From the NCBI RefSeq assembly GCF_000725425.1, contig NZ_CP006019.1, positions 558,001 through 622,000 on the forward strand: DNA of 64,000 bases. The letters are read 5' to 3'. Shown here one piece after another: positions 16,357 to 22,419 of the stretch (position 1 is the stretch's first letter; each line of letters opens with the position of its first letter). The notes under the pieces are model-generated. The model had not been told where the DNA came from and searched no databases. It saw only the letters and a program-made list of their open reading frames with translations. The translations under genes and the position numbers were made by a program. Origin of the DNA: Palaeococcus pacificus DY20341. Its GTDB lineage: Archaea > Methanobacteriota_B > Thermococci > Thermococcales > Thermococcaceae.

Positions 16357-16432
16357 ATGGTTTAATTTTCGATCTTTTATTTTTTGACATAAAACTTATA
16401 AGGTTTGATAAAAATATGTGGATGGTGGTAGT

Positions 16433-16597
16433 ATGGCAAAGTGGAAATGTATAGTTTGTGGCTATATCTACGATGAGGAAGCTGGAGATCCGGATAACGG
16501 GGTAAACCCTGGAACAAAGTTTGAGGACATCCCGGACGATTGGGTTTGCCCGCTCTGCGGTGCACCAAAAGATATGTTTGAAAAGATGGAGGAATAA
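16433..16597 (+). CDS. rubredoxin
   Basis: A 54-aa one-iron electron carrier. It starts [19 protein letters not shown] and has the second CPLCG pair near residue 40; the four cysteines (6, 9, 39, 42) coordinate a single iron. It mediates electrons from NROR to superoxide reductase, rubrerythrin and flavodiiron protein. AAACTTATAAGG (about 16392-16403) is the promoter, and GGTGG precedes the ATG. The stop lies 11 bases before the superoxide reductase start, so the two are co-transcribed. Confidence 0.95.
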
Positions 16598-16608
16598 AGG
16601 TGGTTGAT

Positions 16609-16971
16609 ATGAAGTTTGGGGAGATAATTTACACCCCTGAGGTTGAGGAAGGCCCAGCGGCTGCCAAGAAAGAGAGCCACGCACCGAAAATTGAGATCGA
16701 GAAGAAGGAGGACTACTATAAGATTAAAGTGAGTGTTGGACCTCACCCGAACACGCCGGAACACTCAATTAGGTGGATTGAGGTCTACTTTTACGAGGAA
16801 GGAAGGGCATTCAACCCAATAATCCTCTCAAGAGTCCACTTCGAGCCCGGCTATGTTGAGCCAGAAATAAAGCTCAAGATTAAGCTCCAAAAGAGTGGAA
16901 TAATCTATGCAGTTGCTTATTGTAATTTACACGGGCTTTGGGAAAACAGAAAGGAAATTAAGGTTGAGTGA
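16609..16971 (+). CDS. sor: superoxide reductase (neelaredoxin type), unusual active site
   Basis: Reduces superoxide to H2O2 at a mononuclear iron with four His and one Cys ligand. The 120-aa protein keeps SHAP (His about 28), PHPNTPEH (two His) and the C-terminal YCNLHGLWE (Cys and His). The catalytic loop normally reads GEKHVP; here it is KESHAP, so the conserved active-site Lys is Ser while the adjacent Glu remains. The N-terminus is also longer and Ala/Lys-rich. Start at ATG 16609, after AAAGGTGG; the GTG at 16600 lies within the RBS. Operon with rubredoxin. Confidence 0.92.
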   Translation: MKFGEIIYTPEVEEGPAAAKKESHAPKIEIEKKEDYYKIKVSVGPHPNTPEHSIRWIEVYFYEEGRAFNPIILSRVHFEPGYVEPEIKLKIKLQKSGIIYAVAYCNLHGLWENRKEIKVE

Positions 16972-18738: not shown

Positions 18739-19104
18739 ATGGCCTTTTTAGATTTTTTAAAGGATAAGAAGAGAAAGGGGGTTAATGAAAACCTGCCACC
18801 AGAGGTAAAACGGGTGGTCTCTATACTGGAGCAGGTTAAAGACCCTGAAACAGGCTTAAACATTGTGGAAGAAGGCTTGGTTTATGGTTTAACGGTTGAA
18901 GGTAAAAAGGTCATGGTGTGGCTTTTCCTTGCGAGGTCAACCCCTGAATGTCATTTTTGTCAAGCTATAGCTATGAATGTTCAAAGGAGAATTTTGAAAG
19001 ACATTATCTCGGCCCTTAAAAAGGAAGGTTTTAATAGAATCGAGGTGTATAATGAGATAGGGCTTTTGCTTGAAGAATGGGGTGAAAAATATGGTCGAAG
19101 TTGA
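18739..19104 (+). CDS. DUF59/MIP18 family Fe-S assembly-like protein
   Basis: A 121-aa protein with a basic N-terminus, the DUF59 motif KDPETGLNIVEEGLVYGL (about residues 33-50) and a TPECHFCQAIAM segment (about 73-84) that supplies the Cys typical of the family, plus an extra Cys making CHFC. Family members help load Fe-S clusters onto targets. Its 3' end overlaps the following ferritin-like gene by 14 bp, tying it to the iron island. Confidence 0.8.
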   Translation: MAFLDFLKDKKRKGVNENLPPEVKRVVSILEQVKDPETGLNIVEEGLVYGLTVEGKKVMVWLFLARSTPECHFCQAIAMNVQRRILKDIISALKKEGFNRIEVYNEIGLLLEEWGEKYGRS

Positions 19105-19609
19105 TAGGGGCTTGCCCCTTGAAAAAATTGAAGAATTTTCTTTGGAGGAGCTTTTGGGAATGGCAATTAAGGCCGAGATTGGGGCTGCAAAGTTCTATGA
19201 AAGCCTGGCGGAGAACATTGATATAGAAGTGTTAAAGGAAAAGATTAGATTTTTGGCGAAGGAAGAGAAGAAACATGAGGCTTTTTTGAGGAAGATGTAC
19301 CGCGAGACATTTCCTGATAAAGAGATTATTTTTCCAAAAGAGCATATAGGTCCAGAGCTCCAACCTGTTGCTAGGAAGCTTGAGGAGATTGAGGATGTAA
19401 TAGACTTATACAGATGGGCAATGGAAGCCGAAAAAATTGCCAACGAGTTCTATCTAAAATTGGAAGATAGAGTAGATGATGAAAAGACAAAGAGAATTCT
19501 CCGCTCCTTAGCAAATATGGAAAGTGCACACTACTTTACTCTAAAGGCAGACTATGAACTTTTGCTTGATTGGGAGATGTACTCTCAAATGATGCACATA
19601 GGTCCTTAA
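19091..19609 (+). CDS. ferritin-like protein 2
   Basis: A 172-aa four-helix diiron-type protein. Motifs AIKAEIGAAKFYE (about residues 25-37), AKEEKKHEAFL (about 57-67), AMEAEKIANEFY (about 108-119) and MESAHYFTLKADYELL (about 142-157) give the two Glu-ExxH half-sites. Start ATG 19091 follows GGGGTGA inside the previous gene. The AHYxxLKxxYE ending is shared with several neighbours, indicating paralogy. No rubredoxin domain or targeting signal. Role in iron or peroxide handling inferred. Confidence 0.85.
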   Translation: MVEVDRGLPLEKIEEFSLEELLGMAIKAEIGAAKFYESLAENIDIEVLKEKIRFLAKEEKKHEAFLRKMYRETFPDKEIIFPKEHIGPELQPVARKLEEIEDVIDLYRWAMEAEKIANEFYLKLEDRVDDEKTKRILRSLANMESAHYFTLKADYELLLDWEMYSQMMHIGP

Positions 19610-20182
19610 GATTGCTATTCTTCTTTTTTTTGAGATCTCAGTGAGCTTTTTTAATATCCTGTAGTGCTGTTCTTCATCCTTTTCTATGCAACTTAGAATA
19701 TCTCTAAAAATGGGATGTAGCTCTTTTTTAGCCAAGCTAGCATAGATTTCCTTCATTTTTTTCTCGCTTTCGAGATGAATTTGTGCTATCATCTCAAGCG
19801 CGGTGGTATACTCTTCCGAAAGAGGAGGTGCCTCCAGCGCTTCAGTGAGATACTCGTCTACCAGCTCATCGATGCCCATCTTTTTTCTGGGATCTTGGGG
19901 CATCGGGAAGATGACTTCTCCAAAACCCTTTAATATAACGAACTCTTCAGGCCCGATATATTTGTATGCTTCAATTTCTTTTACTAACCCTCTAACTTCC
20001 CTATACGACTTCAAAAGAGCTTCCATTAAATGCTTGTGTATCACGCTATCAATTGCAAGCTTGACTAAAAGGGCCCTAATTGGCCGATATTTCTCTTCGT
20101 TAAGTCTTTTGACTTCCTGCATATACTTTTTAGATGCTTTCTTTTCAAGTTCATATACCTCTAACATATCTTTTTCTACCAT
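19541..20182 (-). CDS. ferritin-like protein 3, C-terminus possibly frameshifted
   Basis: A mostly helical protein of 213 codons with ELEKKASKKYM, MIAQIHLESEKKM and EKDEEQHYRIL motifs, a divergent ferritin-like protein with a longer central region containing PPLSEEY. As written it overlaps the convergent ferritin-like gene by 69 bp and ends with a basic tail after EISKKRR. At 19624-19631 there is an eight-base T run (A8 on the coding strand); with seven, the protein would end EISKKEE at 19615, without overlap. Start at ATG 20182 after GAGGG. A CTTTTGTA inverted repeat lies in its promoter. Confidence 0.75.
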   Translation of the reverse strand: MVEKDMLEVYELEKKASKKYMQEVKRLNEEKYRPIRALLVKLAIDSVIHKHLMEALLKSYREVRGLVKEIEAYKYIGPEEFVILKGFGEVIFPMPQDPRKKMGIDELVDEYLTEALEAPPLSEEYTTALEMIAQIHLESEKKMKEIYASLAKKELHPIFRDILSCIEKDEEQHYRILKKLTEISKKRRIAILRTYVHHLRVHLPIKQKFIVCL

Positions 20183-20226
20183 TGTGATTCCCTCATTAGT
20201 AATATGTAAAGATAAAGTATATAGTA

Positions 20227-20250
20227 CTTTTGTATAATCTCTTACAAAAG
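20227..20250. promoter_or_regulatory. perfect inverted repeat CTTTTGTA-N8-TACAAAAG
   Basis: An 8-bp perfect inverted repeat with an 8-base centre lies 45 bases upstream of ferritin-like protein 3, next to the TATA-like ACTATATACTTT (minus strand). Two half-sites about 1.5 helical turns apart suggest a dimeric regulator. Confidence 0.45.
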
Positions 20251-20372
20251 AAAAAAATTTTTCGAAATTTTACTTTCTATACCTTTCTATCAGCTTGCTC
20301 AAAGTCTATGTGCTCCTTCATTTTGTACATTCACTTAAGTCAATCCATTAAATGGAGAGAAGAGAAAGAGTG

Positions 20373-20684
20373 CTACTTTTCTCCCAACTTGACCTTAATG
20401 CCGGTAAGCTCTTCAACTTCTTCAAAACCATCTTTAAGCTCGCTCACCTGCTCTGGATCTAAATGCAAGAGGAGGGCCATAAACTCGCCAACGTGGGCTT
20501 TTTCTTCTCTCGCAATATCTAAGAAGATCTTTCTGATATTCTCATCTTCGACAAACTCAGCAAACTGCTTATAGAAATTTATCGCATCCAACTCTGCCAT
20601 TATAGCCCATCTTAAAGCTTGGGCAACTTCCTCTTTAGATAGAGGCTTTTCTCTGCTTATGGAAATGGGATTTAGTCCTAACAT
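20373..20684 (-). CDS. stand-alone encapsulated-ferritin (EncFtn) domain
   Basis: A 103-aa two-helix ferritin-like protein. Residues 1-100 closely match, as I recall it, the N-terminal ferritin-like domain of the Pyrococcus furiosus encapsulin, including AELDAINFY, AREEKAHVGEFMALLL and LDPEQVSELKDGFEEVEELTGI. The iron ligands correspond to bacterial EncFtn (here Glu31, Glu61, His64). In Pyrococcus this domain continues into an HK97-fold shell; here a stop follows KLGEK, and no shell sequence lies in the next 190 bases in any frame I could read. RBS AAGGGGTGG, about eight bases before the ATG. It should form the annular decamer with ferroxidase activity. Confidence 0.85.
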   Translation of the reverse strand: MLGLNPISISREKPLSKEEVAQALRWAIMAELDAINFYKQFAEFVEDENIRKIFLDIAREEKAHVGEFMALLLHLDPEQVSELKDGFEEVEELTGIKVKLGEK

Positions 20685-20760: not shown

Positions 20761-21243
20761 TCAATCAACTTCAAGGCTAAAATCTTGGTAATCCATCCAA
20801 ATGCCAGTCTTTGATATTGAGTCGTACTGGGCCTTAAGCAGCTCATAATGTGCTTCTTCAACCTTAGCTAACTCTCTAAAAATGTGTTTGACCTTTTCAT
20901 CCTCAGCTTCCTCTGCTGCTTTCTCATAAAACTCCCAAGTAAGCTTTTCCTGCTTCATACCAATCTCAACAGCCTTAACTTCACTTATTTCTCCTTCATA
21001 TTTTGGTGTCAGTTTTTCAAGAACCTCTTTGTTAACGTGAGGGTGTTTACACTTCTCAGTCATTTTTTCAATAAGTCTCTCTTCAAAAATATCCCAATGC
21101 TCGGCCTCTTCTCTCGCTAAAAATAGGAACATCTTTTTTGCTTTCTCGTCTTTGGCTTTTTTTGCCATGTCAATATAGAACATAAGTTCAGCTTTTTCAA
21201 CTTTTAGAGCAGTGGCCAAAGCCTCGAGTTCGCTAATCTTCAT
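20761..21243 (-). CDS. ferritin-like protein 4
   Basis: A 160-aa four-helix diiron-type protein: ALKVEKAELMFYIDMAKKA (about residues 11-29), LAREEAEHWDIFE (about 47-59), IGMKQEKLTWEFYEKAAEEA (about 99-118) and AKVEEAHYELLKAQYDSI (about 129-146) provide Glu and ExxH ligands. A tail with WMDYQDFSLEVD follows. GGTGAT lies three bases before the ATG. Divergent from the acetyltransferase gene, sharing a 100-base promoter region. Confidence 0.85.
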   Translation of the reverse strand: MKISELEALATALKVEKAELMFYIDMAKKAKDEKAKKMFLFLAREEAEHWDIFEERLIEKMTEKCKHPHVNKEVLEKLTPKYEGEISEVKAVEIGMKQEKLTWEFYEKAAEEAEDEKVKHIFRELAKVEEAHYELLKAQYDSISKTGIWMDYQDFSLEVD

Positions 21244-21894: not shown

Positions 21895-22419
21895 TCAGAA
21901 GTTGAAGTTTATATCCTTCATAAGCTGCTCGTAGAACTCTCCTTTATACACATCGGGGTACTGCATCATATAGTCGTACTGCCTCTTTAGAATATTGTAA
22001 TGCGCAACCTCCATGTCAGCAAGCATATTTAAGAGAAGCTTTGTCTCTTCATTTGCAGCATAGCCAGCGAGCTCCCTATAAAGAGCTTCACTTGTCTTTT
22101 CGGCATTCATAGCAATTTCATAAACCTCATCGAGATTTAGATCTGGCTTCTCAATTATTTCCTTCATTTTTTCGGCTATAACTTTGAACTCACTTATGCT
22201 CTTAAGTTCAATCTGGACGGGCTTCCTTTCCCCTGAGCCAAACTTTTTCATCATCCTCTCAATAATCAGCCTGTGTTCATCTTCCTGTTTGGCTAAAAAG
22301 AGCAGCTCGTTTCTAATAATCTCACTCCTTGTCAGCGATGCCATTTTTTCATACGCTTCTTTTGCTTTAATCTCGGAGTTTAAAGCAATTTCAAAAACTT
22401 CTCTATCAGACACATTCAT
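21895..22419 (-). CDS. ferritin-like protein 5
   Basis: A 174-aa four-helix diiron-type protein. Motifs ALNSEIKAKEAYEKMA (about residues 12-27), LAKQEDEHRLIIE (about 43-55), AMNAEKTSEALYRELA (about 107-122) and LADMEVAHYNILKRQYDYM (about 138-156) carry the ligand residues. The Asp/Asn-rich tail ends DINFNF. GGTGAT precedes the ATG. Convergent with the acetyltransferase and divergent from gapN. Confidence 0.85.
   Translation of the reverse strand: MNVSDREVFEIALNSEIKAKEAYEKMASLTRSEIIRNELLFLAKQEDEHRLIIERMMKKFGSGERKPVQIELKSISEFKVIAEKMKEIIEKPDLNLDEVYEIAMNAEKTSEALYRELAGYAANEETKLLLNMLADMEVAHYNILKRQYDYMMQYPDVYKGEFYEQLMKDINFNF

Follow-up and report, generated by a model that had tools for sequence, protein, structure and literature searches.

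A free-standing encapsulin-type ferritin in Palaeococcus pacificus and its shell-less relatives in the Thermococcaceae

Introduction

The encapsulin-type ferritin (EncFtn) has been described as requiring a shell for iron storage, and without its shell the R. rubrum protein takes about 48 Fe per decamer before precipitation sets in (PMC5012862). What, then, does such a protein do in a genome that encodes the ferritin domain alone? We study this question in a stretch of 64,000 nucleotides from Palaeococcus pacificus DY20341 (contig NZ_CP006019.1, positions 558,001 to 622,000), which we call the window; coordinates below refer to the window unless they carry a genome label of ours (G000, G001 and so on). 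A first-pass annotation, made from the sequence alone, had ascribed one short gene to the N-terminal ferritin-like domain of the Pyrococcus encapsulin, and had suggested that its isolation implies another iron sink, a shell encoded elsewhere, or loss of the nanocompartment.

The gene and its product

The following two features are at issue.

20373-20684, minus strand: solo EncFtn gene, recognised by profile and structure-database matches and by its fold model
20183-20372, no strand: 190-bp intergenic gap, the position of the shell in fused relatives, without shell sequence in a six-frame search

The gene is an intact reading frame of 103 codons that starts with ATG, and the motif GGGGTGG immediately 5' of the ATG is a ribosome-binding site. 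Judging by how the locus tags run in the P. pacificus paper, which calls the genes of this cluster rubrerythrins (PMC6981617), the gene is probably PAP_03370. Its product shares about 70-77% identity with the Pyrococcus furiosus domain. It matches the solved structure of that domain, 5n5e, with E 9.4e-41 over residues 2-97; for the fused encapsulin, 2e0z, the match spans residues 1-100 with E 1.3e-40. The protein scores above the cut-off of the Pfam EncFtn-like family PF22277 (29.7 bits, cut-off 27) and under those of the two NCBIfam models for encapsulin-associated ferritin, TIGR04535 (60.8 bits, cut-off 125) and NF058679 (86.3 bits, cut-off 90), while a Pfam search finds in it no PF00210 four-helix domain of the kind seen in 24-mer ferritins and Dps. 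The AlphaFold model, computed as a monomer, has a mean pLDDT of 89.5 and places helices at residues 17-44, 48-75 and 77-94; that is, it has the two-helix half-ferritin fold followed by a short C-terminal helix. The structure closest to this model (m92757d066265) is again 5n5e (TM 0.88/0.92, 69-70% identity). The structure matches and the fold model thus bear out the identification as EncFtn, and the likeness to the Pyrococcus encapsulin N-terminal domain over essentially the full length of the protein.

Search for a shell

The chain ends at residue 103, so that no HK97-fold shell (PF04454) is fused to its C terminus, and the six-frame search agrees with the earlier claim that the stop is followed by 190 bases without capsid sequence. 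We extended the search to the whole P. pacificus genome, which is complete in one contig of 1,859,370 bp. The shell family PF04454 has zero matches in it at E<=10, and nothing in it matches a profile built from seven archaeal shells, the same profile that does detect a shell in the control genomes, two of fused relatives and two of Clostridia. Searching all six frames likewise gave no fragment of a shell near the gene or in the window, and no shell remnants were detected next to other solo EncFtns. Thus the genome holds neither a whole nor a broken shell, and no fused encapsulin elsewhere; a shell encoded elsewhere, one of the three suggestions above, is excluded for the encapsulins of Family 1. 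Family 1 is the scope of the search; the A-domain encapsulins of Family 4 are proteins of about 100 aa and not classical shells (PMC8346489).

A sequencing frameshift might have cut a fused gene in two, and the P. pacificus genome was indeed produced by 454 pyrosequencing (PMC4574382). Shell sequence is missing, however, downstream in all frames and throughout the genome. Since no broken shell pieces occur in six frames, we exclude both a frameshift and a sequencing error, and assign this explanation a negligible probability.

The protein also bears no C-terminal targeting peptide: compared by eye, its tail GIKVKLGEK does not contain the FLP-TP consensus L(F)xV(I)xxL(I) (consensus from PMC11202242).

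EncFtn and shell among relatives

Is the shell-less state peculiar to this genome? We surveyed 94 genomes of Thermococcaceae, 74 of them of good quality, and found exactly one EncFtn in 85 of the 94, including all 74 of good quality, mostly in the same oxidative-stress and iron island. A shell scores above the Pfam cut-off in ten genomes only, always fused, and these same ten are the genomes whose EncFtn reading frame extends to 345-346 aa. The remaining EncFtns stop near residue 100 (that of G062 is interrupted by a stop in a draft assembly). Comparing fused with split forms, as the first-pass annotation had proposed, therefore gives 75 solo and ten fused among 85 EncFtn-bearing genomes: the solo form is the norm in the family, and the state of the window gene is ordinary.

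Outside the Thermococcaceae, we surveyed 50 genomes that were reached via EncFtn loci and are mostly incomplete metagenome bins. A shell is present in all six genomes in which one might be expected from the EncFtn itself, namely three with a fused EncFtn (Archaeoglobales) and three with a targeting peptide (Clostridia), and in none of the other 44, whose EncFtn is short. Single absences in such bins mean little, but the contrast of 0/44 with 6/6 is clear. Short, shell-less EncFtns thus occur beyond the family as well, in many genomes of archaea and of candidate bacteria. Within the Archaeoglobales, solo and fused EncFtns appear as sister groups (L145 and L146 versus L139, L142 and L144).

Ferroxidase residues and subtypes

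In a residue alignment of 84 Thermococcaceae EncFtns, 74 of them solo, Glu31, Tyr38, Glu61 and His64 are invariant (84/84). The ligands that had been named for the window protein, Glu31, Glu61 and His64, are among these. The sequences fall into two subtypes. The Glu63 subtype (motif EEKEH), which we call type B, comprises 70 sequences, every one of them solo; the Ala63/Gln79/Glu82 subtype comprises 14, of which ten are fused, and we refer to it as shell-associated (Fisher p 4e-10 for subtype versus fusion, with kinship ignored). Its four solo members are those of G079, G084 and G093 and the window EncFtn, which has the shell-associated residues Ala63, Met69, Gln79 and Glu82.

Residue 63, Ala in the one subtype and Glu in the other, adjoins the ligand His64, and its equivalent in bacterial EncFtns is a Glu that belongs to the outer C' site (PMC11202242). 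The Ala63/Glu63 difference may concern the exit of iron, which is a guess on our part. Beside Tyr38 of the ferroxidase centre, the window EncFtn has a private Lys39, where 83 of the 84 sequences have Glu.

A fused and a solo locus compared

The fused locus of G075 and the solo locus of G079 are collinear, with 86% identity upstream of EncFtn, 90% within it and 92% downstream. Only two blocks are missing from G079: a 1.08-kb block with a Fur-family regulator and DPSL (thioferritin), and the shell. The shell block is cut after EncFtn codon 101, where 170 unrelated bases stand instead; G084 lacks a longer stretch downstream, starting at the same border. Between the solo sister genomes G079 and G084, EncFtn has dN 0.0086 and dS 0.28, which shows that purifying selection acts strongly on their free protein. 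Informative dN/dS is limited to such close pairs, given that NG86 dS is saturated for the window EncFtn (dN 0.11-0.21 against its relatives, dS high or saturated).

The joint absence of Fur, DPSL and shell extends beyond this pair. Fur and DPSL lie upstream of EncFtn in 10/10 fused loci, in 30/70 type-B loci and, among the solo loci of the shell-associated subtype, in 0/4; the P. pacificus genome contains no DPSL at all. The Fur-family regulator upstream of EncFtn is divergent (loci L110-L124). Two genomes have an intact fused encapsulin together with a defective DPSL, apparently broken by a frameshift in G077 (G077:C1:1123265-1123812); in G080 (G080:C1:1701417-1701584) just the C-terminal part of DPSL appears to be left.

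Trees and the direction of change

The EncFtn trees rest on 100 columns and give weak support for deep forks. They contain a shell-associated clade (100/99) of 15 rows, made up of all 11 fused thermococcal sequences and four solo ones, among them the window EncFtn. A tree that unites all the fused rows in a single clade is rejected by the AU test (p=2e-5), and so the fused or solo state has changed repeatedly. For example, the solo EncFtn of G093 is nested in the P. furiosus group (100/100), and those of G079 and G084 are adjacent to the fused one of G075 (88/92). In a wider tree that includes the Archaeoglobales, the type-B solo group is placed inside the fused rows (87/85), which makes loss the likelier direction, but horizontal transfer is also at work: between G001 and G068 the identity is 94-97% for DPSL, EncFtn and shell and 77-78% for the flanking GNAT and FLP3 genes, so the cassette is mobile.

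How did the P. pacificus lineage come to be without a shell? It may have split off before the fusion arose, the others having gained the shell later, perhaps when a DPSL-EncFtn-shell cassette recombined into their locus. This account is consistent with a placement of the window EncFtn basal to all other members of its subtype, which the AU test does not reject (p=0.115), with the mobility of the cassette in G001 and G068, and with the solo, shell-less EncFtns of distant archaea. It is opposed by the shell-associated residues of the window protein, and also by the wider tree, which suggests that loss is common in the family, if with the weak support that 100 columns afford. We regard a primitive solo state as possible and somewhat doubtful, and judge from these sequence comparisons that loss of a shell is likely in this lineage. 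The suggested loss of the nanocompartment fits the tree and the subtype, but the window EncFtn may sit either inside the fused clade or at its base.

Relation to known systems

In fold, ligands, sequence and island make-up, the window EncFtn resembles the P. furiosus fusion-FLP/encapsulin PF1192 (PFC_05175; the source of 5n5e and 2e0z), from which it differs in having no HK97 shell after residue 100 and neither Fur nor DPSL alongside. In kind it is close to the s-FLPs, such as Nitrosomonas europaea NE0167 (3k6c), which are short EncFtns of about 95-100 aa without a targeting peptide, first classed as non-encapsulated by Giessen and Silver 2017, as cited in PMC11202242. It is nearer in sequence to the fusion-FLP, being 22-26% identical to 3k6c in a structure alignment and lacking the s-FLP tail LFTD(E/N)KPIAHE. 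The FLP-TP cargo proteins (R. rubrum 5da5, M. xanthus EncB and EncC) have in common with it the two-helix EncFtn fold and the E/E/H centre, and differ by their C-terminal targeting peptide and by a shell, both absent here. Archaeoferritin PF1196, from the same kind of island, handles iron without a cage (PMC3401498); it is a longer ferritin-like protein (about 21 kDa) of another branch.

Non-encapsulated FLPs were thus known already, and what is new is the family-wide pattern and the repeated uncoupling of shell from cargo. In the open-licence literature we found no biochemistry of a solo archaeal EncFtn and, on non-encapsulated EncFtn in Thermococcales, nothing beyond the s-FLP review, which is weak as an absence. 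A shell-less EncFtn that is kept throughout a family and elsewhere, and is under selection in close solo pairs, calls for a function independent of the shell. It also means that a virus-derived capsid has been uncoupled from its cargo several times, and the genomes G075 versus G079 and G084 offer natural pairs, with and without, for asking what the nanocompartment adds. As a tentative generalisation, archaeal EncFtn might be primarily a free cytosolic ferroxidase, for which the shell is optional, gained and lost at a fixed locus in one cassette with Fur and DPSL, the residues beside the di-iron centre (Ala63 versus Glu63) being tuned to the encapsulated or the free state.

The island and a proposed function

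The genes around the window EncFtn bear upon what a free EncFtn might do.

15831 onwards: rubrerythrin
16418-16597: rubredoxin
16600-16971, plus strand: superoxide reductase (desulfoferrodoxin), in the cluster named in PMC6981617
17175-18347, plus strand: VIT-type iron/manganese transporter (PF01988, E 1.6e-49), its true start probably 3' of 17175
19070-19609, plus strand: FLP1, close homologue of P. furiosus PF1190 (2fzf; E 5.6e-78)
19541-20182, minus strand: FLP2, ferritin-like protein adjoining EncFtn on the same strand, with a homologue after EncFtn in most fused genomes
20761-21243, minus strand: FLP3, ferritin-like protein upstream of EncFtn, placed relative to Fur, DPSL and EncFtn as is P. 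furiosus PF1196 (archaeoferritin), of which it may be an orthologue
21895-22419, minus strand: FLP4, a further ferritin-like protein

FLP3, FLP2, FLP1, superoxide reductase, rubredoxin and rubrerythrin are kept around EncFtn with or without a fused shell. We think it fairly probable that the window gene encodes a functional ferroxidase, free in the cytosol, which probably passes its iron on, and whose lineage most likely was once fused. By analogy with its P. furiosus counterpart, for which a D5 decamer with an intersubunit di-iron centre is known (5n5e; PMC11202242), the protein would probably assemble into a decamer, and would oxidise Fe(II) at a centre to which two chains contribute Glu31, Glu61 and His64. 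The oxidant would most likely be the peroxide or the traces of O2 handled by the neighbouring superoxide reductase, rubredoxin and rubrerythrin; peroxide is plausible because the island encodes these three proteins along with ferritin-like proteins and a VIT transporter. The private Lys39 and the chance that the lineage never had a shell weigh against this reading, as does the low capacity of free R. rubrum EncFtn, given above, by which the free window protein may do something else. With neither cavity nor shell, and since free R. rubrum EncFtn holds no mineral (PMC5012862), the Fe(III) would go elsewhere, probably to a 24-mer-type ferritin or to the archaeoferritin-like proteins of the island, archaeoferritin in P. 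furiosus being able to form an iron core with no cage in place beforehand (PMC3401498). A 24-mer-type ferritin gene is found elsewhere in the P. pacificus genome, at G000:C1:1596863-1597267 (PF00210, E 2.4e-49), and the notion of another iron sink holds to this extent, that candidate stores exist there and in the island. The ancestor was most likely shell-fused, and its chain would have been severed near codon 100, where the two domains meet.

Two other readings of the solo gene deserve to be weighed against a free ferroxidase. The protein might work only in a mixed complex with FLP2 and FLP3, which would serve as scaffold or iron store in place of the shell. Its adjacency and common strand with both are conserved, and P. 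furiosus archaeoferritin does assemble around iron, and mineralise it, without a preformed cage (PMC3401498). Yet the same neighbours stand beside fused EncFtns, so that they are no substitute specific to the solo state, and FLP2 was not seen adjoining EncFtn in several solo loci; we consider such a complex unlikely. Alternatively, the gene might be a decaying relic of the lost nanocompartment, as the absence of shell and DPSL from the genome and the private change of Glu39 to Lys might suggest. A relic would hardly be expected to retain an intact reading frame, a ribosome-binding site and all ligands, nor would the family keep one EncFtn in every genome of good quality, with purifying selection acting strongly in two further solo genomes, and we find decay very improbable.

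Two minor features of the island complete the description of the locus. The convergent genes of FLP1 (plus strand) and FLP2 (minus strand) overlap at their 3' ends by about 69 bp (19541-19609). The VIT-type transporter lies here within the SOR-DUF59 part of the island; in relatives, where seen, it is on the opposite side, beside GNAT.
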